39,002 nt of DNA from contig NZ_CANPVO010000049.1 of the NCBI RefSeq assembly GCF_947581785.1, forward strand, positions 1-39,002. Reading direction: 5' to 3'. This DNA comes from Candidatus Palauibacter polyketidifaciens (GTDB lineage: Bacteria; Gemmatimonadota; Gemmatimonadetes; Palauibacterales; Palauibacteraceae). The number at the start of each line of letters is the position of its first letter. The stretch's first letter is position 1. Shown piece by piece: positions 11,803 to 37,800 of this stretch. The notes beneath the pieces are model-generated. The model did not search any database, was not told the origin of the DNA, and saw nothing but the letters and a program-made list of their open reading frames with translations. Both the position numbers and the translations under genes were made by a program.

Positions 11803-11855
11803 ACCTCGGCCCTTCCGGCCTACCTCCGGCATACGCGCCCGACCAGGACACTTGC

Positions 11856-11899
11856 CCCCCGCCCGACACGCCGAGAGGCCTCGGGCGGGGGTTATTCTT
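11856..11899 (+). terminator. Rho-independent terminator after the TonB receptor gene
   Basis: A perfect 11-base-pair GC-rich stem, CCCCCGCCCGA at 11856-11866 and TCGGGCGGGGG at 11881-11891, is followed by TTATTCTT. It lies 54 bases after the receptor stop. Confidence 0.85.
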
Positions 11900-11999
11900 G
11901 ATTCGAGGAGCCGACGGTCTACGTTGATCGAGCCGAACGATTGGCCCCTCCGGCGCGCCATGCCGTCTCTCCGGGCGAGGCCGAACTCCAGGGAGGAAC

Positions 12000-12431
12000 A
12001 TGATGCTCAGGAACATTCTCGCCGCGATCGTCGGCTACATCGCCATCGTCGCCGTGCTCTTCGCGCTCTCCTCGCTTTTTTGGCTGGCGCTGGGCCCCTC
12101 GCGCGCCTTCCAGCCGGGTACGTGGGAGGTCGCCGCCGGCTGGATACTCGGCTCCATCGGGATCGGGTTCGCGGGGGCGTACATCGGCGGACGCGTCTGT
12201 GCCCGCGTCGCGCACGACGCCAAGGGCGCCATGATCCTGATCGGCATGATGATCGTGCTCGGAGTGGTGTCGGCCCTGATTCCGGTGGAGGTGGCGACGG
12301 GACCGCGCCCCGATGACGTGTCGATGATGGAGGCGACCATGAGCGCCAGCCAGCCGGCATGGCTCCCCTGGCTCAACCCGGTGATCGGCGTCGTGGGCGT
12401 CTGGCTCGGATCGCGAAAGTTGCGCGCCTAG
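12000..12431 (+). CDS. Small four-helix membrane protein, function unknown
   Basis: 143 residues from the ATG at 12000 (a second ATG follows at once), with a good ribosome-binding site GGGAGG seven bases upstream. Four hydrophobic segments lie at about 5-30, 44-63, 75-96 and 120-139. The second has a GSIGIGFAGAYIGGRV glycine-rich helix seen in many small inner-membrane proteins. I recognise no named family. It stands alone between the receptor terminator and the MpaB-type gene. Confidence 0.75.
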   Translation: MMLRNILAAIVGYIAIVAVLFALSSLFWLALGPSRAFQPGTWEVAAGWILGSIGIGFAGAYIGGRVCARVAHDAKGAMILIGMMIVLGVVSALIPVEVATGPRPDDVSMMEATMSASQPAWLPWLNPVIGVVGVWLGSRKLRA

Positions 12432-12639
12432 CAGCCCGTCCCTGGGCCGCCGGAGTCGCGCCCGGCGGCCCATCCCGCTGCCGCCAGCGCGCGGCACGGC
12501 GCCAGGCGCCAGTCGAGTCAGACTGTGGCTGGTCCATGTCACTATCGAATATGCCGCCCAACAGTCCGATATATCTCCCAATTCATACCATTTACTTCTG
12601 TCCCGCCCCGGGACTTGAGAGCAGACTTTTTGAAGACGA

Positions 12640-19912: not shown

Positions 19913-20033
19913 GTATGCACTCTCCTCATGAGTCGAGTTCAGGGTCGCCCCCGGGTACGCCCGAGCGCGGGAATCAACGGGCGGTGTGCGGCGAGGGGGA
20001 CGATTCTACAAGGTCAGGGCACGACGCGCGGCT

Positions 20034-22391: not shown

Positions 22392-22466
22392 TCAGCCGCC
22401 GCGAGTCGGGGATCGCCCGGTCCATGGGGTTTCGTCATCCAGTCCTTTTTCCGCGCGCGCGGGCGG

Positions 22467-23711: not shown

Positions 23712-23715
23712 GGCT
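23686..23715. repeat. 30-base exact repeat, copy 2
   Basis: Identical to 18960-18989. This copy covers the start codon and first codons of the ureohydrolase lipoprotein gene and is probably the parental one. Confidence 0.8.
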
Positions 23716-23837
23716 TCAATCACGTCGGGCAGCCGGCGCGGAGGAGAGGGGATCGTCTCGGTGGGAAGCCTACGGAGCGCCACACCGGCGGGCAATCGGA
23801 GAGGCGCGTTCATGGTCACCGGGGGCAGAGTTTGGAG

Positions 23838-23872
23838 TTCGGGTCAGGGGACCCTAAACCCAAGAGCCCCGA
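23838..23872 (+). repeat. Short direct repeat A flanking the Abi-like fragment
   Basis: About 35 bases, roughly 85% identical to 24406-24441, ending in the exact shared block AACCCAAGAGCCCCGA. The repeat starts TTCGGGTC, similar to the T-arm of a tRNA. Repeats A and B enclose the truncated Abi-like gene. Confidence 0.6.
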
Positions 23873-23896
23873 GGACGAAACGGCCTCGGGGCTCTT
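23862..23896. terminator. Strong 13-base-pair hairpin, terminator-like
   Basis: AAGAGCCCCGAGG at 23862-23874 pairs perfectly with CCTCGGGGCTCTT at 23884-23896 around a nine-base loop. No T run follows on either strand beyond the TT in the stem. It lies between divergent genes, so it terminates nothing now present; it may be left from a tRNA or other transcript that has been lost. Confidence 0.55.
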
Positions 23897-24004
23897 ACCT
23901 CAGCGTCTTGCTGCACCCGAAGGCCTTTAGCAGTAGAGGACGACCTGAGGCATACACATGGAGTATCGTCAACTCTCACCCAAGCCGCAACTTGTGGAGT
24001 TGCT

Positions 24005-24403
24005 ATGCTATCGATCGAAGGTCTTCGAAGTGTGCTTTCGGCGGAGCGGCTGAGTGCCTACGCGCTGCCTGAGGACGCCGACGAAGTCGACACCGTCGCC
24101 AGATACCTCTGGAACCTGGCGCTGTGCAGCGCCCTCCAGCCAGCGCTTCATACCCTCGAGATTACCGTCCGAAACCGCCTCTTCAACATCTCCAGAAGGA
24201 TCGTAGATGAGACCAGGCTAAGTTTCGACAAGATCCCGTGTTGGCTCGACGCTCGTCCCCCGCTACTTGCTGACCGCGAGCGTCAGGCCGTCTCTCGTCC
24301 GGTTCGCGGCAGCGTCGAGGGCATCTCGCTTGATCCGATTCGCCCCGCCGCCAAGAACCCCAAACAGGATCCATGTGCGTTGGTCACTGGGAGCAGGGTC
24401 TGA
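24005..24403 (+). pseudogene. Truncated Abi-like (abortive infection) protein gene
   Basis: 132 codons. The first 95 residues match the start of Abi-like proteins: LSIEGLRSVLSAERLSAY, then VARYLWNLALCSALQPALHT and LEITVRNRLF, the helix that family members write as YLWNxALSxALxPxLxxLEVxxRNxL. Full-length relatives are about 200-330 residues. From about residue 95 the sequence (SRPVRGSVEGISLDP) no longer resembles the family, and the frame ends directly at direct repeat B. It is probably a broken remnant of a phage-defence gene. Confidence 0.6.
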
Positions 24404-24405
24404 TG

Positions 24406-24441
24406 TTCGGATCCGGGGGGCCCTTAACCCAAGAGCCCCGA
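24406..24441 (+). repeat. Short direct repeat B flanking the Abi-like fragment
   Basis: About 36 bases, the partner of 23838-23872. It shares AACCCAAGAGCCCCGA exactly but the right half of the hairpin seen after copy A is missing here, so copy B is cut in the middle of the old hairpin. Confidence 0.6.
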
Positions 24442-24488
24442 TGTGTATTCGTGGGGGGAAGAGCCAACGCGGTGTAGTGCTGAGTCGG

Positions 24489-24701
24489 TCAAGCCGGCAC
24501 CAGGCGCTGGCCCTTCGGTTCCGGTACGGGCCGTCCCAACTCACGTGCCCGGTCGATCCACAGCTGCATTGCATCCTTGATGTTGCTCAAGGCGCTCTCG
24601 TGATCGTCTCCGTGCGCCATGCACCCGGGCAACTCGGGCGCCTCGGCGACGAAAGCCTGATCATCGTCGCTCCAGTAGAGAATGATCTCGTACTTGTACA
24701 T
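24489..24701 (-). CDS. HicB-family antitoxin, apparently orphan
   Basis: 70 residues: MYKYEIILYWSDDDQAFVAE, then APELPGCMAHGDDHESAL and NIKDAMQLWIDRARELG, the standard single-domain HicB partial RNase-H fold. There is no C-terminal DNA-binding domain. HicB neutralises the HicA mRNA interferase. Its start overlaps (TGATG) the stop of an upstream frame of which only about 28 codons survive, and no complete HicA is visible on either side. Low-copy remains of a toxin-antitoxin pair are the likely explanation. Confidence 0.8.
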   Translation of the reverse strand: MYKYEIILYWSDDDQAFVAEAPELPGCMAHGDDHESALSNIKDAMQLWIDRARELGRPVPEPKGQRLVPA

Positions 24702-24790
24702 CAGTCGTCTGCTCCCAACTTGTACTTGAGGATCAGCTGCCGAACCTGCCTAACCCCGGCTTTAACACAAGGGTCCGCCGCAGTCTCAAC
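24701..24790 (-). pseudogene. 3' remnant of the gene upstream of hicB
   Basis: About 28 codons ending VRQVRQLILKYKLGADD and a TGA that overlaps the hicB ATG. The overlap shows that a coupled upstream gene once existed. The upstream part is replaced by the DUF6526 fragment. The residual sequence does not resemble the usual HicA C-terminus, so I cannot name the lost gene. Confidence 0.45.
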
Positions 24791-24803
24791 CGCCCATCAT
24801 CAG

Positions 24804-24860
24804 CGGGATTCCATCAAGCAGGCCGTCGAAGACTGGCGCGCCGACCACCAGCGCATCTGA
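24804..24860 (+). pseudogene. 3' fragment of a DUF6526 gene
   Basis: The last 18 codons read RDSIKQAVEDWRADHQRI and stop, nearly the same as the end of the intact DUF6526 gene at 38181-38234 (RKAIKEAVESWRADHQRI). The DNA is about 80% identical over the shared 48 bases. Nothing of the gene remains upstream of this point. Confidence 0.7.
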
Positions 24861-24931
24861 ACGGCACGCTCGCCGCGGTTCCCGGATGCGCGACGAGCCC
24901 GCGGCCAACCCTCCCTCTCGCGTAAGTCCAA

Positions 24932-24974
24932 TGGAGCCGCATCGGATTCGAACCGACGACCTCCTGCTTGCAAA
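24932..24974 (-). other. 3' half of a tRNA-Ala(TGC) gene, probable attachment site
   Basis: On the minus strand the 43 bases read from the anticodon loop TTTGCAA through the 3' anticodon stem GCAGG, variable loop, T-arm GTCGG-TTCGAAT-CCGAT and acceptor strand CGGCTCC-A. The match stops exactly at the 5' edge of the anticodon loop; no GCAGG partner strand, D-arm or 5' acceptor strand follows. One extra base separates T stem and acceptor compared with ordinary tRNA-Ala. A tRNA 3' half starting at the anticodon loop is the usual duplicated core left by tyrosine-recombinase integration. By its orientation the element should lie to the right of this point. Confidence 0.7.
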
Positions 24975-24990
24975 ACGTCGATCAGGGTTT

Positions 24991-25012
24991 GTGATTTACG
25001 GCAAGAAATCAC
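24991..25012. repeat. Inverted repeat next to the tRNA fragment
   Basis: GTGATTT (24991-24997) and AAATCAC (25006-25012) form a perfect seven-base inverted repeat around eight bases; TTTACG/CGTAAA forms a second, offset pairing. It starts 17 bases from the tRNA core. It could be a recombinase binding site of the element; this is inference. Confidence 0.4.
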
Positions 25013-25185
25013 GTAAAGTCAACTGGGACTGCACGATCTGCCGTTCTTGCCATGAGGCCACGACGAGCCCGGTCACGCTCGGATAGCGAGAAGATCGGCT
25101 CAAACAGCGGGAATCTGACGGGCCTTTGACGCTGACGTTCGCACTACACGAACCGGGGTCGCCCCTCCACCACAAGGAAGTCACG

Positions 25186-25428
25186 ATGATTCTGACGAAC
25201 AATGTCGTCCAGCGCATCCTCTGCATCAGGAACGGGGACTCCGTTGGTACCGCGTTCACCATCGATCGTGCCGTGGGGCAGTACATCGTCACCGCCCGCC
25301 ATGTCGTCGACGGCATGGCGTCCGCGTGCGCGGTCTCAACACGCCACGAGCTCCAGACATCCGTGGTGCGAGCGGCTAGGTGGACCGGAATGGTGGTCGG
25401 CCGATGGACCGCAAGATCTCCAACGTGA
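25186..25428 (+). pseudogene. Truncated trypsin-like serine protease gene
   Basis: From an ATG with AAGGAAG seven bases upstream, the product begins MILTNNVVQRILCIRNGDSV, then GTAFTI and YIVTARHVVDG, the first beta-barrel strands and catalytic-His block (TARHVV) of trypsin-like proteases. After about 44 residues the similarity ends and a stop follows at 25428. No Asp or GxSGGP block is visible in the other frames downstream. I read it as a 5' remnant with decay. Confidence 0.6.
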
Positions 25429-26279
25429 GCTGGATCCAGATGGGCGGTGTGCCGCAGAACGTGGTACTCACGTCGGAGTGCCGGAGAAATGGGTATTCCG
25501 TAGGGCAACGCGACTCCATACCGGTCAAGAGATCGGTCGGCCAAAATCTTGGATCCAGAGCGCCGACCCAAGGGCTAGGGCCGCGGGGATTTGCCCGAAC
25601 TGGAGCCGGAAGACGGGCCGTGCTGGCGTTCGACGCGGCGCGAGCGCAGGCTCGTTTCGATCCCGCTCGAGTGAAGCGTCAAAATCGTCAAACGGACGGC
25701 TTTGGGCGGGCATCAAGTGATCGGCTTCCTGCAGCGGTCGTCCACCCGTGGTCGCGGTTTCGTGACCCGCGGGAGCGGGTCAGAATCGATCGTGGTCGAT
25801 TGCTCGAGCTGGTATCCTCCAGGATGCCTTCCAGGCACGCGCGCGCCAGCGGGCAGGGATTCGAGCCCCTTGCTGCGACGTGGCGGACCATCCCGAGCGG
25901 GTGATCGGTCATACGACGACTCGGCGTCATGCCCAGCGGATCGCCCCTTCCGTTCGCGCGCGGGCCGGGCGATTTCCTGCTATCATTACCCTATGAACAA
26001 GGGACCCGACCTACACTGGATCGCCAGCTGCATCTGGGGCACCGCCGCCTCCACGCGGCGCTTGCACCCTCTAAGCAGGCTGTTCTCGACATGAGGGCTG
26101 CGGTGGATCCATCGGACTCATGGACCAGCGGTCCGAGCCTAGGCGGGCGCTCGTGGAGGCCGACCTGAGCCGCCAGCCGGTGACAAGCACCGACCGAGAG
26201 GTCAGCCATCTCGGACTCAGATCGGGTCGGTCACCTACTCTCCAAGAAACTAGGCCATGGAGGCAAGGGAGAGGTCGAG
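25429..26279. other. Gene-poor stretch between the protease remnant and the PRTase operon
   Basis: About 850 bases. Open frames of up to 170 codons exist but are arginine-rich and resemble no family. I see no RNA gene or clear mobile-element end. The stretch 25846-25870 looks slightly like a tRNA T-arm, but the pairing is poor. It is probably decayed sequence. Confidence 0.5.
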
Positions 26280-26963
26280 GTGCTTAAGTGGAGTGAGTTT
26301 CGCGGCTGGATGGCTTTCGACAGGTTATCCGAGGACGAGGGCGTGACGCGCGCGTTCACGGTCGGCTACCGCTTCAACGATGATCCCGCGGACCCGTGGA
26401 CGGCTCGCTTCAACGCATTCAAAAGGCAGCCGCACGCTGCCCTCCGTCGTGCAGGAGCGATGATGCGGGATGCTGTCCCCAGTCTCGTTGAAGGTCTCGC
26501 CGAAGACCTTGGGCTCGTTACCTCGAAGACAGTCTTCGTCCCGGCGTTATCGTCAAGCGAAACGGTCGCGTCCCCCGGCGGCGTACTGTGGCGCTTGGCG
26601 CAGTTCTGTGCCGAATGCTCGGGCGTGGAATTCGCGGGGGAACGGATCACGAAGAACGCGCACGAGCAACTCCACGGGCACCACGACGCCTCGAAGAGGA
26701 GCGCCATTCTGGCCGCCGCCGATTTCAGGTCGGAAGAGATACGCGCCGATAACGTCCTGATTCTCGACGACTTCATCACGAGGGGTAGCACGATGTCGCA
26801 CCTCGCGCGAGCCATGCTCGAGCGGAATCCTGAGCTCCTGATCTTCGCCGTCGCGCTCGGCAAGACGGAACGCCGTAGCTACTGTCGCGAGAATTTCGGC
26901 GTAGAGATATCGAACGAGCATGTGCCAAGTCGGTGGGAGAGGAGGTGGCTCGATGCGAAGTGA
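26280..26963 (+). CDS. Phosphoribosyltransferase-like protein, first gene of a three-gene operon
   Basis: 227 residues from a GTG with GGGAGAGG upstream. The PRPP-binding motif is NVLILDDFITRGSTM at about 159-173 (two acidic residues after hydrophobics, then T-x-G-S/T-T), as in ComF-type and orotate-type phosphoribosyltransferases. The N-terminus AFTVGYRFNDDPADPWT and the C-terminus with a CRENFG cysteine do not match a housekeeping enzyme that I know. The stop overlaps the DprA-like gene start by 11 bases. With DprA-like and HAD neighbours the set looks like a nucleotide-metabolite defence or stress module; this is inferred. Confidence 0.78.
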   Translation: MLKWSEFRGWMAFDRLSEDEGVTRAFTVGYRFNDDPADPWTARFNAFKRQPHAALRRAGAMMRDAVPSLVEGLAEDLGLVTSKTVFVPALSSSETVASPGGVLWRLAQFCAECSGVEFAGERITKNAHEQLHGHHDASKRSAILAAADFRSEEIRADNVLILDDFITRGSTMSHLARAMLERNPELLIFAVALGKTERRSYCRENFGVEISNEHVPSRWERRWLDAK

Positions 26964-27942
26964 TGTCGCCGGCGCGTCGCTGACCGCAGTCTCGATACTC
27001 GCGGTCATGAAGCTGAAGCGCATTGGGCGGGCGAGTGCCTTGGCCATCGTCGATCGGCCGATCAACGAAACACAACCCGAGAGTTGCCGCGAAGCCCTGT
27101 TGTACCGTCTTCGTGAGCAGCAACCCCGCGTTCAGTCCGCCACGATCTCGGATGCCTGGGCCAGGAGCGAGGAGCAGCTGAACCGAGGCTCTGAGCTAGG
27201 CGTGCACACTTTATCATTCCACGATGAAGGGTATCCTGCTCGTCTGCGGAAGATCTCCAATCCGCCGGCGCTGCTGTTCGTGAAGGGCAACGTGCAGGCC
27301 GTGCACGCGCCGCGGGCCTTGGCGGTGGTAGGAACACGCAAGCCAACGCCCGAGGGGAAGTGGCTGGCGCTGAGATCGGGATGCATAGCTGTTCAGAGCG
27401 GCTATGAGATCATCAGCGGCCTCGCTCATGGCTGCGACACTCTTGCGCACGAGGGGTGCCTTCAGGAGGGAGGCGTCGGAGTAGCAGTTATGGCGCACGG
27501 ACTGGACAGAGTCTACCCGGCGGCGAATCGTGACTTGGCGGACCGGCTCCTGGACACCGGAGGCTGCCTGGCGAGCGAGTACCCGGTGGGCATGACGCCG
27601 TCACGCTCAGCGTTCGCTGAACGTGACCGTATCCAGAGTGGACTCTCCGATGGCGTGCTCGTCGTCGAAACGGATGTTCGGGGTGGGACGATGCATACTG
27701 CGCGCTTTGCTCTCAAGCAGGAACGGGCGCTCGCGTGCTTCCACCTCGAGCACTTGGAGAGCTTTCGTTCGGAGATGACCCGGGGCAACCAGAAACTCGT
27801 CCGGGAGGGGGACGCGCAGCCGATCAGAAGTCGCACGGCACTCATCGAGTTCCTCAACGATCTGCGGCCGCCGAAAGCGACGCCGCCTGATCCCGAGCCC
27901 ACGCCCGCGATTCGTGACACGCAGAGGTGGCTCGGATTCTAA
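26953..27942 (+). CDS. DprA/Smf-like SLOG-domain protein
   Basis: 329 residues from the ATG at 26953, preceded by GGAGG. An N-terminal helical domain with LKRIGRASALAIV (helix-hairpin-helix-like) leads into the Rossmann-like DprA core: LAVVGTRKPTPEGK, IISGLAHGCDTLAHEG, VAVMAHGLDRVYPAANRDLA, CLASEYPVG, then FAERDRIQSGLSDGVLVVET and GGTMHTARFALKQER. The normal RNR of DprA is RDR. True DprA loads RecA on incoming DNA, but SLOG proteins in operons with phosphoribosyltransferases are thought to sense nucleotide-derived ligands. The gene overlaps both neighbours, so all three products are likely needed together. It also lacks the usual C-terminal winged-helix domain of competence DprA. Confidence 0.85.
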   Translation: MRSDVAGASLTAVSILAVMKLKRIGRASALAIVDRPINETQPESCREALLYRLREQQPRVQSATISDAWARSEEQLNRGSELGVHTLSFHDEGYPARLRKISNPPALLFVKGNVQAVHAPRALAVVGTRKPTPEGKWLALRSGCIAVQSGYEIISGLAHGCDTLAHEGCLQEGGVGVAVMAHGLDRVYPAANRDLADRLLDTGGCLASEYPVGMTPSRSAFAERDRIQSGLSDGVLVVETDVRGGTMHTARFALKQERALACFHLEHLESFRSEMTRGNQKLVREGDAQPIRSRTALIEFLNDLRPPKATPPDPEPTPAIRDTQRWLGF

Positions 27943-28445
27943 GCGTGATTATCTTCGATTTCGATCTCACCCTCGTCGACACGAAGCCCGTTGAAACACT
28001 GCGAGCGGCCAAAGAATGGCGCTTGGTCATGGCTCGGGTGCCGGAGCTGGAAGTATACGATGGCGTGCACGAGCTCCTCTCCGAGCTCGATGCGAACCGC
28101 CAGAGGCTCGCGATTGTCACCAAGAGCCCGGACATGATTCCCCGGGCGTTCGTGCGTCGGTACGGGTGGCCAGTCGACATCGTGATCGGTTACCACCAGG
28201 TGAGGAAGCACAAGCCGGACCCGGAGGGTCTGGTTCGGGCCATGTGCCAGGCCAGCGCGACGAGCGCTCAGACATTTCACGTCGGAGATCACCCCGAGGA
28301 TACGGAAGCCTCCCAACGGGCTGGCATCGCGGCAATAGGGGCGGGGTGGGGATCGACAGATGTCGCACTTCTCAGAGCATCGAATCCCGATTACCTGTTC
28401 ACGTCTGTGCAGGAGTGCCGGGAATTCCTGTTGTCAGTCCCGTAG
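27927..28445 (+). CDS. HAD-family hydrolase, third gene of the operon
   Basis: 172 residues from the GTG at 27927, overlapping the DprA-like gene by 16 bases; a GTG at 27945 just after its stop is possible. All HAD motifs are present: FDFDLTLVDT (nucleophile Asp), IVTKSP (motif II Thr), KHKPDP (motif III Lys) and HVGDHPEDTEAS (motif IV acids). It resembles phosphoglycolate-phosphatase-type enzymes with a short helical cap. It probably dephosphorylates a small phosphorylated metabolite, perhaps a product of the phosphoribosyltransferase; that link is inferred from the operon. Confidence 0.88.
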   Translation: MARILSVIIFDFDLTLVDTKPVETLRAAKEWRLVMARVPELEVYDGVHELLSELDANRQRLAIVTKSPDMIPRAFVRRYGWPVDIVIGYHQVRKHKPDPEGLVRAMCQASATSAQTFHVGDHPEDTEASQRAGIAAIGAGWGSTDVALLRASNPDYLFTSVQECREFLLSVP

Positions 28446-28553
28446 GCGCGTCGCAGACATTGAGTGATGATCGTGGTTGCCGTGCCCGCCTAGCGTGGCG
28501 AGCCCGCTGGAAGCGACAACCAGTCCAAAGCACCGATGGAGTCAGCGCATCGC

Positions 28554-28581
28554 TTGACACGCACCGTTTACAGCGTACGAT
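28554..28581 (+). promoter_or_regulatory. Sigma70-like promoter before the TIGR04141/DUF6119 gene
   Basis: TTGACA (28554-28559), a 16-base spacer and TACGAT (28576-28581). Transcription would start near 28588, leaving a leader of about 65 bases before the ATG at 28654. It is the clearest promoter in the island and means that this gene is expressed separately from the operon to its left. Confidence 0.65.
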
Positions 28582-28653
28582 GACGCACTTATCCAAGGCC
28601 AGTTCAACTACTTGCCACCCAACCTCCATCCCTCTTGCCGGATGTGCCATGTC

Positions 28654-30270
28654 ATGGGTTCCAGTCACTACTTTTCGATTTACCTACTAAAACCCAGCTA
28701 CAACGCGTCGTCGGCTCTGCGCGACGATCACGACCTCGTCCCGAACGTCACGGCGGATCGTCTGCCCCCAGGCGCTTCCCTGTATCTGTCCGAAAAAATA
28801 CCGATACAGGTCTGGTGGAAGGAATATTTTGGCATCGATCGTGATCTCAAGCAGGCATTCAAAGGCGCTCTCGTCTTCGTTCCGGCGTCCGAGAGAATAT
28901 TTGCCTTCTCATTCGGTCGCGCCTATCACAGCCTGAAGAACGCGAGCTACGAACCTGATTTTGGGTTGCGAGTCACACTCAATCTCGTCGACGCCAACAA
29001 GATCAAGAATACGGATATCGTCGAGCCAGCCAACGCCCGTCGGCGACGGACCCAGGTCCCTGTGTTGTCAGACTTAACGATCTTTGATTTCGATCACGAC
29101 AGCTCGGTACTCAAGAACCTTGCTGGCAAAGCAAAGGCGGCTCATGAACACCTTGTTCGAAACGTGTCTGGTCAAGACAGTCTCCGGATCAGCTCGGATG
29201 TTGAGGCATCGAATCTCCCTATGCTGTGCGAAGAGTTGTTGACGCACTACCAGTCGAATGACTATGAGAATGTATTTCCAGGGATTCGCGCCATTTCCCG
29301 GGTTAAAGATCCATCCCTTATCGAGCAGCTTGAGGAAAAGCTGGTGCTCGGTTTGAGAGGAACCGATCCGGCATTGTTACTTGGGGTGCCAGACTTTGTG
29401 GACTACGCTAGGCCGGTCCAGATCAGATACCGTGGTGCGGGTGGCAAGTTTGTACGAGATGATGTCGCGCTCGAATTGTACTACGAATATTTGTATACGA
29501 GGAACGTGTCGCCGGAATCGATCGAGCTGGAGGACCTTCAGCGACACAAGATCGAGCTCGTGGACGAAGACATGCGGCCGGGAGACAGGCATTCAATTAG
29601 GAAGGCGTTGATCTATGACACGCACTTGGAGGGAGAATCGGCCGGCTATCACCTGTTAGAGGACGTGTGGTATCGCGTGGAGAGAGATTATATGCAAATG
29701 CTGGAGACGGATATAGGAGAAATGTTTCAAGACACCGATCTACCTCCGTATACGCATGACCATAAGGATGAGAAGGACTACAACAGTAAGATGGAGGAAG
29801 AGCATAGCGGAGCGCTCTGTTTGGACGGTGAAGACATTTCTCCGGCGGGTGCGACGCAGGTAGAGCCCTGCGATTTCCTATGCGTGGAGGGGAGCGAGGG
29901 CGATGGGGAACCAGACGTCACGTTCGTCCACGTGAAGCGGTCTACGAGATCGAGCGGGCTGAGTCATTTATTTAGCCAAGGTACAGGGGCCATGGAGTTG
30001 CTGCTGTCGGAATCGGATTCAGTAGAGAGGTTGGAAGCGTTGGTGGCGAACCGCGAGGAGAGGTTGGGGGGTGTGCGATTGGCGGAAAGGCTCGGAGATA
30101 GGACGGTTCGGGTTGTCTTTGCCGTCGTGACGAACAAGGATCCACGCCGAACGTGGCGGAACCTACCGCTCTTCTCGAGGATCAATCTCCGCCGTGCGAA
30201 GCGCCAGTTTCAGTTGATGGGCGTCCCGGTGGCGATAGGATACATCCGGAACGAAACTTCAGGCGCGTAG
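28654..30270 (+). CDS. TIGR04141/DUF6119 family sporadically distributed protein
   Basis: 538 residues from the ATG at 28654, where the family pattern begins (HYFSIYLLKPSYN). Other marks are YEPDFGLRVTLNLVD near residue 105, the acidic central block (HKDEKDYNSKMEEEHSG), CDFLC followed by VTFVHVKRSTRSSGLSHLFSQG, and LPLFSRINLRRAKRQFQLMG at the C-terminus. This family is known to be patchily distributed and is often seen in defence islands; no biochemical function is established. The CDF...HVKR core looks like the acidic-Lys arrangement of PD-(D/E)xK folds, which I mention as speculation. Codon use is clearly more AT-rich than in host genes, consistent with transfer. It is convergent with the methyltransferase gene. 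Confidence 0.82.
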   Translation: MGSSHYFSIYLLKPSYNASSALRDDHDLVPNVTADRLPPGASLYLSEKIPIQVWWKEYFGIDRDLKQAFKGALVFVPASERIFAFSFGRAYHSLKNASYEPDFGLRVTLNLVDANKIKNTDIVEPANARRRRTQVPVLSDLTIFDFDHDSSVLKNLAGKAKAAHEHLVRNVSGQDSLRISSDVEASNLPMLCEELLTHYQSNDYENVFPGIRAISRVKDPSLIEQLEEKLVLGLRGTDPALLLGVPDFVDYARPVQIRYRGAGGKFVRDDVALELYYEYLYTRNVSPESIELEDLQRHKIELVDEDMRPGDRHSIRKALIYDTHLEGESAGYHLLEDVWYRVERDYMQMLETDIGEMFQDTDLPPYTHDHKDEKDYNSKMEEEHSGALCLDGEDISPAGATQVEPCDFLCVEGSEGDGEPDVTFVHVKRSTRSSGLSHLFSQGTGAMELLLSESDSVERLEALVANREERLGGVRLAERLGDRTVRVVFAVVTNKDPRRTWRNLPLFSRINLRRAKRQFQLMGVPVAIGYIRNETSGA

Positions 30271-30431
30271 GAAGCTCCACTAAGTTCTGTCCGGGCTACC
30301 TGGGCCGAAGCCTTCTTTGTGTATTCGGTCACACGCCTAGCGGAGCGCCCAAGCAACCTTCTCCCCCACGTCGCACATCGGAGTTAACGACGCCAGGGGG
30401 AAGTGGGCGCGTTCGGTGACGCCTGCCGCAC

Positions 30432-30446
30432 TGCGCGGAATGCGCA
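30432..30446. repeat. Small hairpin between convergent genes
   Basis: TGCGC-GGAAT-GCGCA at 30432-30446 lies in the 216-base gap between the convergent TIGR04141 and methyltransferase genes. There is no T run, so a termination role is uncertain. Confidence 0.35.
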
Positions 30447-30486
30447 TTGTTCACGATAACGGTGGTTTTGTGACAACCAAGAGCCA

Positions 30487-31422
30487 TCAATCGCTCACCG
30501 GCGCGTATGCTAGCTCATTTGCCAAGATATTCAGACAATCAGCTGTTGCGCTAGGTCTTACAACACGGTAGTGTCGTCGTATCATCTGAATCCTATTTCG
30601 TGGACCAAACCACAACTCGTCTTCCAGCTTCAACCAGTACGAGTGTTGCGTCTCGTTGTGGGACCGCAATGCGGCTACGCAAGTCGCCAATCGCAACTCA
30701 TCGGCAAACTCATGAATACTGCTACACATATGTGCTCTAGTAATATCTCTGTGCAACAAGACCCGACGCAACACATCCTCTCGTCCAAAACGGTAACTGT
30801 GAAACTCTCCGTGGGTTATCGTAAGATGTCTGGGTCGGAGGAGTTGCAGGAAGAGCCCAAGTGTCGGTAGCGTAGAGCCACATGTATCCAAGTCGACCAT
30901 ATCGATAGGCACACCAGCACTCCGCACACCCGCAGCAGCCACAACTGCATCACCGGTATATATGCTGACTCGCTGATCGTCGCTTCTAGCGTATGATTCC
31001 CATCCGTCTAGGCCTCCCTTCTCTCGGTGGAAGTCGCCATCCAATAAGTGCCCCTTCAACGCTGCGGTCTTCTTGGACGAACGGTCGACCGAGAACACGT
31101 GCGAGGCACCGCTCAGCCACTTCATCGTCTGGTGGCCAGCCCCCGCGTATGCTTCGAATACATTCGTCGGGGTGGTGCTGCTAGCCACCTTCTCGGTGAA
31201 CGCAGCCTTCTCATCCCGATATGACTTGCCGAACGTGTCTTCGCGGATGCGTAACCGGCGCTTCTTGCAATTGATCGACGCCCGCGTCCTATTCGGCAAA
31301 GCCGCCCGCAGCTTCTTGATGGCTACCACCCCGTCCTCCAATAGAGCCAACAACGTCTCTTCTTCCCGTTTGCTCCACGCCTGTGGCGGGCCGTCCGCTC
31401 GCCGCCGTTCGAGCTTGGTCAT
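30487..31422 (-). CDS. SANT/Myb-like DNA-binding domain fused to a class I methyltransferase
   Basis: 311 residues from the ATG at 31422, inside the ATGA overlap with the HerA-like gene. Residues 14-57 form a Myb/SANT-like helix-turn-helix (AWSKREEETLLALLEDG, then LPNRTRASINCKKRRLRI). The rest is a SAM-dependent methyltransferase: motif I FEAYAGAG at 89-96, acidic end of strand 2 in FSVDRS, and motif IV VDLDTCGSTLP at 176-186. A D-x-D-x-x-G-S motif IV is more like tRNA-guanine methyltransferases (Trm1-type) than restriction methylases with NPPY/DPPY. It is the third gene of the NurA-HerA operon. The target, DNA or RNA, is unknown. Confidence 0.78.
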   Translation of the reverse strand: MTKLERRRADGPPQAWSKREEETLLALLEDGVVAIKKLRAALPNRTRASINCKKRRLRIREDTFGKSYRDEKAAFTEKVASSTTPTNVFEAYAGAGHQTMKWLSGASHVFSVDRSSKKTAALKGHLLDGDFHREKGGLDGWESYARSDDQRVSIYTGDAVVAAAGVRSAGVPIDMVDLDTCGSTLPTLGLFLQLLRPRHLTITHGEFHSYRFGREDVLRRVLLHRDITRAHMCSSIHEFADELRLATCVAALRSHNETQHSYWLKLEDELWFGPRNRIQMIRRHYRVVRPSATADCLNILANELAYAPVSD

Positions 31423-33269
31423 CGCTCTGTCCTCGCTCGTCCCTTCACTGCCTCCCAGTACGGTGTCATGGCCTGGTGTGGCAACGGCGGCGCCCAGCCG
31501 TGAATCCTCACCCAGTCGGGTGTTCCGTTGAACGGCGATTTCACCCAAAATTGGCCGTGTCCGAAGCGGGCAGCAATCATGGCTGACTCTTTGTCCAAAT
31601 GCGCGTACGATCGATTCCCCGGATCCAGCTTCATTACGATCCGTGTCGGACACTGCTCGGGAACGATCTTGTGCAGGTCTCGGGGACTTTGTGTGCTGAG
31701 AATCAAGTGAATATCGAACTTGCGGCCTTCTCGCGCGAGCAGTTCAAATGTCCGCCGCAACCGATCAAACGTACCCCTGGATCCCACGACCGGAGGTCTT
31801 TCGGGCACGATTTGGTGCGCCTCGTCAAAAAACACGAAGACTTCTTTCAAGTCTCGTTTCCTGCGATAGAGCCACCGGACGAGCTGCATCTGCCACATTA
31901 GCCGCTCTTCGTAAGCCAGATGTTCAAGATACACGATCGTCGTTCCGTCAAAATCAAAAGCATCCAACGGATTCCGGTCGAGATCCATCGACGGCTGGTG
32001 ATGGTCAAAGTAGTTTTTCAGGTTGCTAAGTGCCCGTAGGGCTGCCCACGCCGTTGATGTGTAGTAGTTGGTACCGCCGCGACTCGTAAAGGAACTGCTC
32101 TTCGCCTTTTGCGCCTTTTGCACATGCTGGCGGATTCTCATCTCCAGACGGTCGATGGTGACTGGTGTGTTTCGGCGCTCCAAATCACCAGCCTCCTCGT
32201 CCAGCAGCATTGCGGCCTGCTCTGACGTAATGCGGAAGAGATACTCTACGTCAGAGGGTCTACCAAGATCTTGGAGACGCATCCCAATCTCATGGACCGC
32301 CACCCCTCGATTCCTAGCCAGCCTTTTTAGGAATTGAACAGAATCAGACCGGTCCCTCGACACGGGCAGCACGAGATTGAACGGACCAACGTTTTTGATC
32401 GCGTCCGGCGGGCTAAGCACCTGATCGTCTTTCAGATGCCGTTGCCACGGCTGGGGTGTGAGGAGTGGCACAAATGCAGGGTGCTTATCAGATGGGTTGT
32501 TGTTGAGAAAGAGTTGCGTGAGATCTCCCTGCACGTCGGTCATAATGACCCGATACCTGGGGTTCTTGATTTGGCGGATCTCAAGTGCCAGGTGCTTGAG
32601 GAGTACAGTCTTACCGCTGCCACTTTCGCCGACAATGAACATGTGTTTGTTGTCGAGACGTGCGATATCCCACCGATAAATGAGAAGTTCACCATTCTGT
32701 TCGTAGGGACGGCTACCAAATCCCACAGCCCCGAAAGGAATGCCCTGTTCGCGTATCGCCAATAGCTGGGACAAAACAGGTGCATCTGCCTCGGTACTAG
32801 GAAGTAGGTTTGGAAAGAACAGGCGACTCGAACCCGATGGCGGTCGCTGCACGGCGGATCGCGCGAATGTGTTCGCCTTGGAGTCTGGACCCCGGGTCAG
32901 CTCTTGGTTTAGCCGGACGCGTACCAACATCGGTTGAACGGAATGCGGACCATGTAATCCTGTGAGCAAGCGATGCGGATCATCCGCCTGGTCCTCCATG
33001 TAGAGCAGTGTCTCTCGGTCTGGATGAAAGGGTGATGTGCTCCGTACTCGTACAACCGTCCCGTCCAACCACACTTTTTCACCGTGCCGGTCGTCTTCAA
33101 CAAGTACGCGCGATCCGAAGGCAAGGTCAGGCATGGCCTCTGGATCATGCAGCAGGTACTCAGCGAACGCTCCTGACTGGTCAACCGAGAAGGGATTACG
33201 GACGTCGGCATAAGGGACGGCGGCACGCGCCTCCACGGACTCGGCCGGATTCGAAGCTGATTCGGTCAT
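31419..33269 (-). CDS. HerA-like FtsK/VirD4-superfamily ATPase
   Basis: 616 residues. A beta-barrel HAS-like N-terminal domain (FGSRVLVEDD...) precedes the motor. Walker A is VGESGSGKTVLLK with GESGSGKT at 214-221, Walker B VFVFFDEAHQ at about 477-486, a sensor LILSTQSPRDL near 522-532 and a C-terminal latch region. HerA forms hexameric rings that pump double-stranded DNA and partner with a nuclease such as NurA. The gene starts in a 4-base overlap (ATGA) with the NurA-like gene and ends in one with the methyltransferase gene, so stoichiometric expression is likely. All catalytic motifs are intact. Confidence 0.9.
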   Translation of the reverse strand: MTESASNPAESVEARAAVPYADVRNPFSVDQSGAFAEYLLHDPEAMPDLAFGSRVLVEDDRHGEKVWLDGTVVRVRSTSPFHPDRETLLYMEDQADDPHRLLTGLHGPHSVQPMLVRVRLNQELTRGPDSKANTFARSAVQRPPSGSSRLFFPNLLPSTEADAPVLSQLLAIREQGIPFGAVGFGSRPYEQNGELLIYRWDIARLDNKHMFIVGESGSGKTVLLKHLALEIRQIKNPRYRVIMTDVQGDLTQLFLNNNPSDKHPAFVPLLTPQPWQRHLKDDQVLSPPDAIKNVGPFNLVLPVSRDRSDSVQFLKRLARNRGVAVHEIGMRLQDLGRPSDVEYLFRITSEQAAMLLDEEAGDLERRNTPVTIDRLEMRIRQHVQKAQKAKSSSFTSRGGTNYYTSTAWAALRALSNLKNYFDHHQPSMDLDRNPLDAFDFDGTTIVYLEHLAYEERLMWQMQLVRWLYRRKRDLKEVFVFFDEAHQIVPERPPVVGSRGTFDRLRRTFELLAREGRKFDIHLILSTQSPRDLHKIVPEQCPTRIVMKLDPGNRSYAHLDKESAMIAARFGHGQFWVKSPFNGTPDWVRIHGWAPPLPHQAMTPYWEAVKGRARTER

Positions 33270-34525
33270 ACGTAGACCTCTGGAATATTGAGGTTGCTGT
33301 TATGTAACGCCGCGGTTGCTCGCCAGCGTAACCTAGATATTTCCGACGTTAGTTGGCAGCATCGATCAGCCTGCATCTGGATCAACGGTGCTTTTCTGCC
33401 TAGTTCGTGCTGCCACGCCACCAAACGCAGGGCCCACTCTACCTTTTCACAGTCACGCTCCCACATAAACTGCGGAACCTCCATCCGAATGTACCGATGA
33501 GGTCGGGAGCGACTAAGGTAGTAACATACCAGCGGTGCTAACTCCTCCTCTTGGTCAACGACTTTTCTCCGTGCGCGTGGAACCGCTCGAACTAGCGGTG
33601 TTCGATCACCAGGACTCATAATCCTAGGCAGCAACACCGAATCCGTAGACACGGACTCTAGAGTCGAACGAGTGATGTTCTGCCCCGGAAACCAGTGGTC
33701 GCGCAGATCTGATTGACCAAGCAATAGCTCAAGCAGCAGCGTGGACTCAGAAACCCGTTTTGAGACGGATACCAAAACCTGCTCGTGCCATTGGAAGACA
33801 GGAGCCAGCCCAGACACCGTGTCGGCAGGAGAAACGCTAGTCGAGAACAGCGGGCCATCTCGAATGCACACGCCACGTTGGTGAAAGGGGACATCTCGTA
33901 GCAGTGCGAGTTCTAGATTCTGCTGTAGACTCACGGCCAAGCCTAGTGCCTGAGATCCGGGGTTGCTGTTGGCCGCGCCCGCTTTGTGCCGGTACAAGAG
34001 AGGCTCGGAGAGCCCTTCAGGGTCTAGCGCTAAAGCCAGCAGGTCGAAATTCTCGGACCCGGAGGCGGGTCTCCTGACGTGTGAATACAGGTTGTCATCG
34101 AATGCATTACCGTCCACCAACAGCAACCCGGCAGAATCAAGAGTCTTGTGGTTCGTATATGGCTTATCGGGCGATTCCGAATACTTGAATGATACCAGAG
34201 CGCTCCGGGCTATGATGAAGTAGAATGATGCATGATCGAAGCGTTGATTACTGCCGTCGATACTGTGGATATGAACTCCAGCGACGTCGTGACGGTCCGG
34301 AAGTGGGAGGGGACGTGGTGTCGCGTGGTCTTCCGCCAGTTCTATGGAGTGGTAGGCGTGAGACTTTAAATCCAGTTGTTGCCCATAAACGGTCTGCTGG
34401 AGTGCTTCTAGTGCCTCTGCTGACAGGGCAGGCAAGTCGGTGGGGGGACCTCGTGGTGGCAGCTTGCGGTAGTCCGCGTCGTTGCGGAGCGAGGTTAGCG
34501 CGCCGGTGAAGAGGTTGTCAAGCAT
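33266..34525 (-). CDS. NurA-domain nuclease, first gene of the HerA operon
   Basis: 419 residues from the ATG at 34525; longer frames add residues that do not resemble the family. NurA signatures are present: HIHSIDGSNQRF at about 85-96 (first metal Asp, D90), a second acidic strand CIRDGPLFS near 220-228 (D223), and the C-terminal RYIRMEVPQ and HELGRKAPLIQMQADRCCQL blocks. NurA is a metal-dependent 5'-to-3' exonuclease that works with HerA at DNA ends; in bacteria such pairs have been linked to antiviral defence. Operon partner and order match that model. Codon use is AT-rich for this genome. Confidence 0.85.
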   Translation of the reverse strand: MLDNLFTGALTSLRNDADYRKLPPRGPPTDLPALSAEALEALQQTVYGQQLDLKSHAYHSIELAEDHATPRPLPLPDRHDVAGVHIHSIDGSNQRFDHASFYFIIARSALVSFKYSESPDKPYTNHKTLDSAGLLLVDGNAFDDNLYSHVRRPASGSENFDLLALALDPEGLSEPLLYRHKAGAANSNPGSQALGLAVSLQQNLELALLRDVPFHQRGVCIRDGPLFSTSVSPADTVSGLAPVFQWHEQVLVSVSKRVSESTLLLELLLGQSDLRDHWFPGQNITRSTLESVSTDSVLLPRIMSPGDRTPLVRAVPRARRKVVDQEEELAPLVCYYLSRSRPHRYIRMEVPQFMWERDCEKVEWALRLVAWQHELGRKAPLIQMQADRCCQLTSEISRLRWRATAALHNSNLNIPEVYV

Positions 34526-34554
34526 CGTGTCTCTCGGTTTACGGAATCGCGAAC

Positions 34555-34570
34555 GGCCTCCACGGAGGCC
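34555..34570. promoter_or_regulatory. Perfect palindrome in the nurA leader
   Basis: GGCCTCC-AC-GGAGGCC, a 16-base perfect palindrome 30 bases upstream of the nurA-like ATG. It could be an operator or fold in the mRNA leader. It is the only notable structure close to the start of the defence operon. Confidence 0.4.
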
Positions 34571-35210
34571 TTCCAATCGGATCGACCCTACGCTGAGTGA
34601 GCCAGTTCCGCGACGAACGGGAGATCCAACTGGGCCCGTGAAGTCTAGCGACGGCGAGGGAGATGGCTGTGTAGCATGGCGGCACGTCTACGGTGACGGC
34701 GGGGGAGATTCCAGTCGCGCTGGTTGTCTCAGCGGCGATCCACGTAGGTAGGGGAGCGGGACGACAGATTGGCGTGACCTCGGCTTGCTCCATGATCCGC
34801 TCCGGAAGCTCTTCATGGCGTGTGCACTCGGTGTCAGATATCGAGTTGGTCAATATAACACCGCCTCCCTCGCGGCGAATCGGCTCTCACCGAACTCGCC
34901 AGCGGTAGCGATTCCCCGCCGGACGCCACCATTTCTAGGCGCCATCCCCGATCCGCGCGGTGAGCGCCCCGCCGTGGGCCGCCCGAATGACCTCACGCTG
35001 CACAGGCGGCTCGATGGTAGCTGGGAATCTGACACGATGCCGTATCATTCAACGGCATCTCGCACGATCTGCCCGTATTCTTGAACTTGATGTCGGGCTC
35101 TGCCGGACATCACCGACGATACGACGGACGGCATCCGTCAGCCTGTCATGGCCCGTACTTCCGTAGGTTGCCGGCGACTCCCGGCTAAGCACCGACGGCC
35201 GGGTCGCGCG
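34571..35210. other. Gene-free stretch at the right edge of the accessory region
   Basis: About 640 bases without a convincing gene. It holds a cluster of hairpins: GATGCCGT/ACGGCATC (35036-35059), TGTCGGGC/GCCGGACA with one mismatch (35091-35109) and GACGGA/TCCGTC (35123-35139). These lie just beyond the stop of the hydantoinase-type gene, read leftwards, and may act in termination, or mark an old integration boundary. I find no match to the tRNA-Ala core here. Confidence 0.45.
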
Positions 35211-36638
35211 CTACGGCGCCCGCCATCTCCCGCGGCGCAGCAGTTCACCGCTGCCCGCCCCTGCCAGCACCTCCCCGTTCTCGTACACCACCTCGCCGCG
35301 GCGGAGCGTCATCACGGGCCAGCCGGTGACTTCCCACCCCGAGTAGACCGAGAAGCCGGCGCCGGAGAACATGTCCTCGTCGCGGATGGTGCGCGTCTCG
35401 TTCGGGTCCCAGAGGACGATGTCGGCGTCGGAGCCCACGGCGATCGTGCCCTTGCGCGGGTAGAGGCCGAAGAGCCTGGCGGCGTTAGTCGAGGTCACCG
35501 CCACGAAGCGCTCCTCGGATATGCGTCCCCGGACAACGCCCTCTGAATAGAGCATCGGCCGCACCACCTGGAGGTTGCTCAGGCCGGCCCGGTGACTGGA
35601 GATGGTCTGCGACGGGTCCAGCTTCTCCTCGCGGCGATAGGCGACGTGGTCCGTGGCGAGGACGTGCACGGATCCGCTGGCGATGCCCGCCCACAGGGCG
35701 TCCTGATCGGCCTGCTCGCGAAGCGGCGGCTGTCCCACGTAGAGCCCGCGGTCGGGGCCCTCGAAGCGCTCGCGGGTGAAGTGGAGGTAGATGGGGCGGG
35801 TCTCGACGAAGACGCTGAGCCCGCGGTCCCGGGCCTCCTGCAGCACCCGCAGCGCGCCTGCGGAGGAGACGTGAACCGCGTAGATGGGCGCCCCGGTGGC
35901 CTCGGCCATGGCGACCGCGCGCTGGCAGGCGACGACTTCGGCGAGCACGGGCCGGCTGTCCGGGAAGTACTCGAGCGAGGTGCGCTCGGCGGCTGTCAGC
36001 TCGGCGATGGCGTGGGCCAGGATGGGCCAATCCTCGCAGTGCACCATCGTCAGGATGCCGGCGCGCCCCGCCTCGGCCATCGTCGCCATATGATTGGGCA
36101 CTGCGGCGTCGAACGTGGTCCACACCATGAAGATCTTGGTGCTGGTCTGGCCGGTTTCGCCGCCGAGGGTCGTCATCTCGGCCTGCTCGGTTCCGGGGGT
36201 GATGCCCGCGTGCAGGATGACGTCCGCGATCGCCTGCTCACCGATGACCGCCGCCTCGCGCTCGATCGCCTCGGCGAGGGTCTGCTCTCCGGCGGGAAAG
36301 GCGAAGTTCGAGATCGTGGTGATGCCTCCCGCGAGCGCCGCCTGCGACCCGGTGCGGTAGTCGTCGCGGGTGCGTCCCCCCAGGTGGACGTGGGGATCCA
36401 CCCCGCCCGGCATGACCCGCAGCCCGGTGGCATCGATCACGCGGGCGCCGGCCCCCGCGGCCAGTCCGGTCCCGATCTCGACGATGGTCCCGTCCCGCAC
36501 CCGCACGTCCGCGTCGAATCGCCTCTCCGAGGTGACGACGGTGCCCCCGCGGATGAGGATCTCCTGCGTGGCCGTGACGGCCTCGAGCGGGCTGGTCGCG
36601 GCCAACGCCGCGAGGAACACGCAGTGACGGCGGAGCAT
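35211..36638 (-). CDS. Secreted dihydropyrimidinase/hydantoinase-type amidohydrolase
   Basis: 475 residues from the ATG at 36638, chosen because MLRRHCVFLAALAATSPLEA then reads as a signal peptide. Amidohydrolase motifs: DPHVHLGG (metal histidines), STKIFMVW (the Lys that is carbamylated in hydantoinases), MVHCED and YAVHVSS (metal histidines), and LATDHVAY (catalytic Asp). The usual HAENGD is MVHCED here. The enzyme should open a cyclic amide such as hydantoin or dihydropyrimidine, probably in the periplasm, which is unusual. The window shows no partner gene. A longer frame to 36689 also exists. GC content and codon use are host-like, so the island ends before it. Confidence 0.88.
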   Translation of the reverse strand: MLRRHCVFLAALAATSPLEAVTATQEILIRGGTVVTSERRFDADVRVRDGTIVEIGTGLAAGAGARVIDATGLRVMPGGVDPHVHLGGRTRDDYRTGSQAALAGGITTISNFAFPAGEQTLAEAIEREAAVIGEQAIADVILHAGITPGTEQAEMTTLGGETGQTSTKIFMVWTTFDAAVPNHMATMAEAGRAGILTMVHCEDWPILAHAIAELTAAERTSLEYFPDSRPVLAEVVACQRAVAMAEATGAPIYAVHVSSAGALRVLQEARDRGLSVFVETRPIYLHFTRERFEGPDRGLYVGQPPLREQADQDALWAGIASGSVHVLATDHVAYRREEKLDPSQTISSHRAGLSNLQVVRPMLYSEGVVRGRISEERFVAVTSTNAARLFGLYPRKGTIAVGSDADIVLWDPNETRTIRDEDMFSGAGFSVYSGWEVTGWPVMTLRRGEVVYENGEVLAGAGSGELLRRGRWRAP

Positions 36639-37034
36639 GGGCACGGATCGTCGGAAGATCATGGCGAATAACATGCCGATCGCGAACACCGATCGGAACA
36701 GCGAGATCGCAGTGGAGGCACCCAGCGTGTGAACCGGGCCGAAGGTGTCGAGCGCAGCATCCCGAGACGTGTCGCCTCCTGCTCGTCAGCCCGGGTGGCG
36801 GATCGAGCCTGAGCAGAAGGAACATGATGGGCAGCACCCCGAGCAGGACCAGCGCCCACCGCCGGTTGATCGCGGGGTCGGGTGGTCCAAGCCGCGCAGG
36901 GGAGCGGCCTTCAATGTCGCTTGGCCCCGCGTCGCCCGACCGCGCACGCCCCACCGGTCGGTTGACGTTTCACAGCTGCGATTCTTATTTTGATTCAAAC
37001 TAAATCACAATATGACTCATCATGAGATCAGGAA
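36639..37034. promoter_or_regulatory. Intergenic region with promoter and palindromes before the FitA/VapB-VapC pair
   Basis: The last 75 bases are AT-rich against the GC-rich host. A sigma70-like promoter reads TTGACG (36962-36967), 18 bases, TATTTT (36986-36991). Palindromes TTTGATTCAAA (36989-36999) and CTCATCATGAG (37016-37026) overlap or follow it and suit autoregulation by the antitoxin. The part from 36639 to 36950 holds no gene I can support. Confidence 0.5.
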
Positions 37035-37295
37035 ATGAAACAGCTCACCGTTAGAGGCCTCGGGGACGATCTGACCGGGGCGATTCGCCGTTTGGCGAAC
37101 CGCGACGGAACATCGCTCAACCGAGCCGCCGTCAAACTGCTGCGCCGGGGGGCGGGGCTGGAGGGCAGACAGGCGGCCGACGCGGTCGGGTCGTCGCTGG
37201 ATTGCTTCATCGGCTCCTGGAGCGACGCGGAGGCGGACGAGACCGAACGGGCGCTCAGGCACTTCGAGACGATCGACGGGGCCATGTGGGATTGA
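37035..37295 (+). CDS. FitA/VapB-like ribbon-helix-helix antitoxin
   Basis: 86 residues. MKQLTVRGLGDDLTGAIRRL is the ribbon strand and first helix, and ANRDGTSLNRAAVKLLRRG the second helix of a FitA-type RHH DNA-binding domain. The C-terminal tail (about 45-86) should wrap the toxin; it contains FIGSWSDAEADE, typical of FitA/VapB tails. The stop overlaps the likely TTG start of the PIN toxin. Confidence 0.88.
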   Translation: MKQLTVRGLGDDLTGAIRRLANRDGTSLNRAAVKLLRRGAGLEGRQAADAVGSSLDCFIGSWSDAEADETERALRHFETIDGAMWD

Positions 37296-37681
37296 GGGTG
37301 CTGCTCGACTCGAACGCTTATGTGCAGCTCATGCGGGGAAGCGAGAACGTAGCCGGGATCGTGCGAAGAGCCGAGGAGGTTCTGCTGTCGACGATCGTGC
37401 TCGGCGAACTGCTGTACGGCTTTCGCTACGGCGCGCGCTACGAGCGCAACGCCCGCGCGCTGCGCGCCTTCCTCGACAATCCCTACGTTACCGTGGTGCC
37501 GGTCGGAAAGACCACGGCCGACCGGTACTCGAGAATCGCGGCGGCTCTGCGAGCAAAGGGCCGCCCGATCCCCACCAACGATATCTGGATCGCCGCCCAC
37601 GCCATGCAGACGGGAGCCGACCTGGTGTCGGCTGACCGCCACTTCGAGCACGTGGAAGGAATCGCCTGGGTTCGCCTCTAG
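37292..37681 (+). CDS. vapC: VapC-like PIN-domain ribonuclease toxin
   Basis: 129 residues from the TTG at 37292, overlapping the antitoxin stop (TTGA); GTG at 37298 is an alternative. PIN acidic residues are all present: LLDSNAY (first Asp), STIVLGELLYG (Glu), TNDIWIAAHA (Asp) and SADRHFEHV (Asp). VapC toxins cut tRNA or rRNA. The pair looks complete and functional. Confidence 0.9.
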   Translation: MRVLLDSNAYVQLMRGSENVAGIVRRAEEVLLSTIVLGELLYGFRYGARYERNARALRAFLDNPYVTVVPVGKTTADRYSRIAAALRAKGRPIPTNDIWIAAHAMQTGADLVSADRHFEHVEGIAWVRL

Positions 37682-37800
37682 CCGCGTGGTCCGCGTCGTG
37701 GTTTCGGGTCCAAGAAGCCATCCGCGACGCTTGCCCCGCAGTCGCCCCACCGCGCATTACTCCTGCACGCGACGCGCCGCACCGGAATCCGGAGTTGCCA

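Follow-up and report, generated by a model that had tools for sequence, protein, structure and literature searches.

The stretch of DNA analysed here, 39,002 nucleotides of a contig of Candidatus Palauibacter polyketidifaciens and hereafter the window, contains an operon of three minus-strand genes predicted to encode, in this order, a NurA-family nuclease, a HerA-type DNA translocase and a methyltransferase with a Myb/SANT domain; the open reading frames and strands were verified. The source genome assembly comprises 3.2 Mb in 52 contigs. A first-pass annotation, based on the sequence alone, had placed the three genes and both of their 4-base ATGA overlaps exactly where we find them, and its three gene calls, the SANT domain included, agree with the Pfam matches, family profiles and AF2 models. 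It had also described the nuclease, Walker and methyltransferase motifs as intact, and the window copy indeed has IDGS and RDGPL, Walker A and B, and motifs I and IV. The features of the operon are as follows (all on the minus strand; counts refer to the window operon and its relatives described below).

33266..34525, minus: gene 1, NurA-family nuclease, 419 aa (P0001); PF09376, E=1.1e-5, above cut-off
34256..34258, minus: Asp90 in the IDGS motif, predicted catalytic; kept in 6/9 operons, Ala in L012 and L015, Asn in L014
33857..33859, minus: Asp223 in the RDGPL motif, predicted catalytic; kept in 6/9 operons, Glu in L012 and L015, Asn in L014
33266..33269, minus: ATGA stop/start overlap between NurA and HerA, read from the sequence; an ATGA overlap is shared by the gene pair of L011
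31419..33269, minus: gene 2, HerA-type hexameric DNA translocase, 616 aa (P0002); PF05872 and PF01935 above cut-off
32607..32630, minus: Walker A, GESGSGKT; invariant in 9/9
31815..31838, minus: Walker B, FVFFDEAH; DEAH invariant in 9/9
31419..31422, minus: ATGA stop/start overlap between HerA and the methyltransferase, read from the sequence
30487..31422, minus: gene 3, Myb/SANT domain plus class I SAM methyltransferase, 311 aa (P0003); AF2 model and family profile
31243..31377, minus: three-helix Myb/SANT domain, approximately residues 16-60; AF2 helices 18-29, 35-41 and 47-60, MYB21 profile match, Pfam Myb
31129..31152, minus: methyltransferase motif I, AYAGAGHQ (SAM-binding); invariant in 7/7
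30871..30894, minus: methyltransferase motif IV, DLDTCGST; invariant in 7/7, not NPPY/DPPY
30787..30816, minus: family-specific motif THGEFHSYRF; THGE, HS and RF invariant in 7/7

The GC content of the operon region is 53-60%, compared with ~61-73% elsewhere in the window, in keeping with the AT-rich codon use noted in the first-pass annotation. No att-like repeats were found in the flanks of the operon. The locus around the island (window 20022-37686) is rearranged relative to the congeners G056 and G071, in which an amidohydrolase gene, the 36949-37686 gene and the 20034-22391 transporter gene are contiguous; in the window the island separates them. An empty site was not observed, as the contig from the same species stops before the island and the congeners are rearranged at the locus.

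Structure and sequence comparisons point to the same identity for gene 1. The 13 best PDB matches of its AF2 model (pLDDT 74) comprise only NurA structures and TM1739, an RNase H-like nuclease, with E=1.7e-8 against D. radiodurans NurA (7f6d), and the protein is 30-46% identical to those of seven relatives, each adjoining HerA. The product of gene 1, which is the sole NurA found in the source genome, has the features expected of the nuclease of a HerA-NurA pair, namely an RNase H-like fold with predicted catalytic aspartates in IDGS and RDGPL. The one NurA match in the search of the window's own phylum, in genome G300, proved to be an artefact, being antisense to a metalloprotease gene. The HerA-type translocase likewise has the HerA domains and the Walker A and B motifs expected of the partner motor; it shares 45-54% identity with eight relatives, and its family profile matches solved HerA structures (best 8yho, 1.8e-13). 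Matches to the PADLOC HerA models were generic (~1e-14 to 1e-20), the best being to mad8 (5e-19), and the protein scored 51 bits against NCBIfam HerA_antiphage, for which the cut-off is 800.

Gene 3 by itself gave no significant match in Pfam, NCBIfam or PADLOC. It is 42-46% identical over its full length to six relatives encoded directly downstream of HerA, and when these were combined with the window protein in a family profile, Myb domains ranked first (MYB21, E=0.0036); one relative also matches Pfam Myb_DNA-binding (5e-4). The AF2 model (pLDDT 78) shows a Rossmann methyltransferase preceded by a three-helix domain, as anticipated by the SANT-methyltransferase call. Myb/SANT domains usually bind DNA. 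Fold ranks 1-3 for gene 3 in the PDB were taken by Trm1 structures (2dul, 2ejt and 2ytz; E ~2e-8 to 5e-8), at a TM of ~0.51 by query length and with other class I methyltransferases close behind; further RNA methyltransferases were among the next ranks. Methyltransf_15 matched 4/7 members weakly (best 0.003), and the Trm1 Pfam family matched none of the seven. The gene 3 motif DLDTCGST is similar to what we take to be motif IV of Trm1. The known DNA-methyltransferase motifs (NPPY/DPPY, PCQ) are absent from gene 3, and none of the seven members has a DNA-methyltransferase Pfam match. By sequence and model, the catalytic part is Trm1/TGS1-like and not that of a standard DNA methyltransferase, so that a DNA self-mark is only something we infer. 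The earlier proposal of a DNA-binding methyltransferase providing a self/non-self mark holds for the SANT domain and the SAM-dependent fold, but the enzyme is not of the type typical for DNA methylation. Across gene 3 relatives, the SANT part is 38-52% conserved compared with 43-46% for the catalytic part, with no sign in these sequences of the diversification of a restriction-modification specificity domain. We also noted that HGEFH (HxExH), within the family-specific motif, lies after the fifth methyltransferase strand with H, E and H invariant. To our knowledge this motif does not occur in Trm1; it could bind metal or take part in catalysis.

Relatives of the operon were sought by scanning 84,980 species genomes with a degenerate pattern for the HerA core. 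The alignments behind this pattern and behind a degenerate methyltransferase pattern included invented variants, which served only to define what was searched for; matches were verified against the sequence of the window itself, the three window proteins being compared with the relative loci by tblastn. Since the search for relatives relied on two short peptide patterns, the number of relatives is a lower bound: at least eight true relatives, from Bacteroidota, Ignavibacteria, Balneolales and others, were among the matches listed (L016, a generic HerA, was rejected). NurA is directly upstream of HerA in 8/8 of the relatives listed, and in 6/8 the methyltransferase is directly downstream, namely in Neolewinella lacunae (L008), a Chryseobacterium-labelled genome (L009), a member of the Sphingobacteriia (L010), a member of the Ignavibacteria (L012), Bacteroides reticulotermitis (L014) and a member of the Balneolales (L015). 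Intergenic spacing in the relatives is within ~30 bases. With the window included, the order NurA-HerA-methyltransferase occurs in seven genomes among the scan matches listed, and since it recurs in six genomes other than the window's, the gene order is not due to chance. These relatives confirm the first-pass suggestion of a conserved set with fixed order and show that adjacency of the methyltransferase to HerA-NurA is not peculiar to the window. Of the other two relatives, L013 has NurA-HerA on a contig that stops 20 bases past HerA, and L011, which carries a Deltaproteobacteria label but archaeal-looking genes, has NurA-HerA without the methyltransferase, which is at odds with the proposal that the third gene is obligate. 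Among the L011 genes, those for a proteasome subunit and for a KH beta-CASP nuclease of archaeal type were recognised by reading of the sequence; the contig is probably archaeal or from a mislabelled genome.

Whole-genome searches of the relatives found the methyltransferase once per genome, in the operon only, and no stand-alone copy was detected in 395 sampled genomes of the window's own phylum or in two further samples, of 198 and 183 genomes. Nuclease and methyltransferase occur together in one conserved operon in all seven genomes that have the methyltransferase, but three of these have a NurA that appears to be inactive. Pairwise identities of HerA correlate with those of the methyltransferase (r=0.87, 7 taxa) and of NurA (r=0.82), consistent with movement as a unit; the correlation between NurA and the methyltransferase is weak (r=0.44, 6 taxa). 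These comparisons tie gene 3 to the NurA-HerA pair both by gene order and by evolution. Very few genomes have the operon: it is present in ~0.5% or less of those sampled (1/395 in its own phylum and 2/395 in the phylum of N. lacunae). All three genes are absent from another genome of the same species and from the listed genomes of the genus. Searches with the single proteins yielded no close relatives in plasmids, phages, viral contigs or the 395 own-phylum genomes, only distant HerA matches, and nothing in the genome-contig collection matched the degenerate methyltransferase pattern as a relative, whereas the degenerate HerA pattern did yield relatives.

Both predicted catalytic aspartates of NurA are missing in L012 (6443-7723, IAGN/KEGA), L015 (854-2164, IAGD/KEGP) and L014 (6407-7713, INGS/KNGP), despite intact HerA and methyltransferase motifs in all three, which implies that the nuclease is not always needed. 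The frameshifts in L014 may be sequencing errors; this is less likely for the aspartate substitutions. The three-gene set of the first-pass annotation describes the window well, but five relatives (L009, L010, L012, L014 and L015) add a fourth gene after the methyltransferase, encoding a protein of ~510 aa with SLFN_AlbA_2 (Schlafen/AlbA_2) and HATPase_c_4 domains (9752-10318 in L010, 10466-11989 in L012 and 10441-11979 in L014). A DUF5131 protein precedes it in L009 and L015, where the two genes span 10441-12737 and 4869-7215, respectively. In its five genomes, the fourth gene was found only at the operon, although in L010 it seems to be divided between two contigs. Searches of the complete genomes to which the window, L008 and L013 belong did not find it. 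Aspartate loss is seen only in operons with the fourth gene (3/5 versus 0/4 without), too few cases for us to claim a link; the pattern suggests that the nuclease job was dropped or passed to another protein in the fourth-gene branch.

By raw count, defence-type genes adjoin 8/9 operons. Three such features lie beside the window operon, and a defence-island setting is supported.

28612-30270, plus: DUF6119/TIGR04141 protein, E 6e-123, convergent with the operon
26280-27942, plus: ShosTA-like pair, a phosphoribosyltransferase (ShosT, 4e-7) and a DprA-like protein (ShosA, 3e-73)
24005-24403, plus: PD-T4-5 fragment, 7e-6, matching the first fifth only

The ShosTA-like pair is followed by a gene for what reads as a HAD-like protein (window 27927-28445), and a 26-nt direct repeat, 92% identical between its copies at 23847-23872 and 24416-24441, flanks the PD-T4-5 fragment; fragment and repeat together are a possible scar. 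Among the relatives, L013 has a DUF6119-like gene upstream of NurA on the opposite strand (22% identity to the window DUF6119) as well as HEPN_LA2681. The neighbours in L010, L014 and L012 are PDC-M38A (3e-297), Shedu (3e-20) and a mad3-like AAA protein (5e-29), respectively. The DUF5131 protein of L009 corresponds to PDC-M41B (1e-102)/M30B, and L015 carries a homologue by sequence. The AbiP-like neighbour of L008 (6e-4) is a weak match, and no defence-type neighbour was recognised in L011.

HerA-NurA is a classic machine of archaea, and opinion is now divided on whether it serves repair or antiviral defence; in bacteria, HerA motors that have SIR2 or DUF4297 as partners protect against phage. 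The window operon resembles the HerA-NurA complex of archaea and Deinococcus (PDB 7f6d, 9x1l) in both protein families, the adjacency of their genes and the intact motifs, but it belongs to a divergent clade, has a methyltransferase as third gene, is patchy in distribution and island-borne, and has no Mre11/Rad50 seen nearby. With SIR2-HerA and DUF4297-HerA it shares an effector gene beside the HerA gene; its effector is instead NurA, it includes a methyltransferase, and the operon contains no SIR2 or DUF4297 gene. MADS, the eight-gene (mad1-mad8) methylation-associated defence system, has a similar HerA in mad8, whereas the operon has three genes, no other mad gene and a different nuclease; the methyltransferase of one relative matches mad2 weakly (0.0019). 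In PADLOC-DB 2023, no model matches the window NurA or methyltransferase, HerA matches only the generic models and mad8, and the three-gene set has no name. A literature search, which did not extend to subscription papers, found no description of a NurA-HerA-methyltransferase set of this kind, and two surveys, of HerA/FtsK capture systems and of BREX-related systems, do not mention NurA (PMC10853773, PMC12839542). The novelty claimed in the first-pass annotation is nevertheless narrowed by an operon of Thermus ICETh1, in which the order NurA-HerA-methylase has already been described with a methylase of another family (PMC5365140, PMC7767461). This nearest described operon also combines NurA, a HerA/FtsK motor and a methylase in a low-GC accessory element. 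It differs in its pfam01555 methylase, its type IIG restriction enzyme, its role in DNA donation and its location in an ICE that has an integrase and att repeats, neither of which was found beside the window operon; the likeness to its motor, TdtA, is by published description.

A defence role for the operon appears likely, and it is probably a bacterial immune system without an earlier description. More specifically, we lean, somewhat beyond even chances, towards a compact, rare and horizontally spread anti-invader system resembling restriction-modification, on the strength of the three folds, the intact window motifs, the fixed order across phyla, the restriction of the methyltransferase to the operon in the genomes searched, and the defence neighbourhoods. 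HerA pumps double-stranded DNA into a NurA dimer, as established by HerA-NurA biochemistry. Here, a HerA hexamer would thread double-stranded DNA into the NurA dimer, which would degrade it, and the Myb/SANT plus Trm1-like methyltransferase would bind DNA, either marking host DNA as self or licensing loading sites for the motor-nuclease. The HerA-NurA complex would in this way destroy invading DNA while methylation protects the host. Gene 3 would suit a self/non-self component because it combines predicted DNA-binding and SAM-dependent catalytic domains; the inferred methyl mark is the weakest step. The operon shares with restriction-modification a nuclease and a methyltransferase in one operon, but not a known DNA-methyltransferase family, and the RNA-methyltransferase-like fold, the conserved SANT part, the dead-looking NurAs and the L011 pair without methyltransferase all raise doubt about this reading. 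We know of no case of guanine N2 methylation serving as a restriction mark in DNA. A bolder version, which we regard as rather doubtful, would make the operon a new class of restriction-modification with a SANT-guided Trm1-type self-mark, possibly on an exocyclic amine such as guanine N2, and with unmarked DNA passed to HerA for destruction by NurA. Anti-phage systems that combine HerA with other effectors are well established (PMC11291478), and the HerA-NurA complex of T. kodakarensis, for which the authors suggest an antiviral role, cleaves the two strands of double-stranded DNA (PMC12977600).

The same genes could be read in other ways. Gene 3 might act on RNA, at a tRNA-like guanine N2, or be a non-catalytic DNA-binding recruiter or sensor, giving defence without a methyl self-mark. 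The Trm1 and other RNA-methyltransferase fold ranks, the weak matches in four of seven members to Methyltransf_15, a family of RNA cap guanine-N2 enzymes, the missing DNA-methyltransferase motif IV and the existence of NurA-HerA without gene 3 in L011 point this way. Trm1 is the closest fold; gene 3 departs from it in its N-terminal Myb/SANT domain, its operon with a DNA motor and nuclease, and the missing Trm1 Pfam match. The invariant SAM-binding motif I and motif IV argue for catalysis, and the Myb/SANT domain for DNA, leaving this alternative unlikely. It is still less probable that the operon serves the repair of DNA ends, as a module comparable to the HerA-NurA of archaea and Deinococcus to which the methyltransferase is accessory: NurA and HerA do have the folds known from the repair complex, and the archaeal-looking L011 has the pair alone, but no Mre11/Rad50 was recognised next to the loci read, the distribution is sporadic with absence from the same species, the NurA active site is lost in three operons, and the neighbours are defence genes.

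Equally improbable is a transjugation-like module for DNA donation, in which HerA would export host DNA processed by NurA as in ICETh1. The last three genes of the Thermus TthHB27I-NurA-TdtA-methylase cluster have the same order as the operon. In T. thermophilus, tdtA (FtsK/HerA) is co-transcribed with the upstream nurA and the downstream methylase gene, and DNA donation needs TdtA and NurA, with only a minor effect of methylase loss (PMC5365140, PMC7767461). Against this, no integrase, att-type repeat, tRNA, relaxase or restriction enzyme was recognised beside the window operon, the Thermus pfam01555 methylase belongs to another family than gene 3, and defence genes are the operon's neighbours.

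A conserved bacterial operon in which HerA-NurA is joined by a dedicated DNA-binding methyltransferase would link HerA defence with the archaeal HerA-NurA machine. Such an operon would make the antiviral role of HerA-NurA directly testable, as well as the idea that a guanine methyltransferase fold of the tRNA type was taken over for the marking of DNA.
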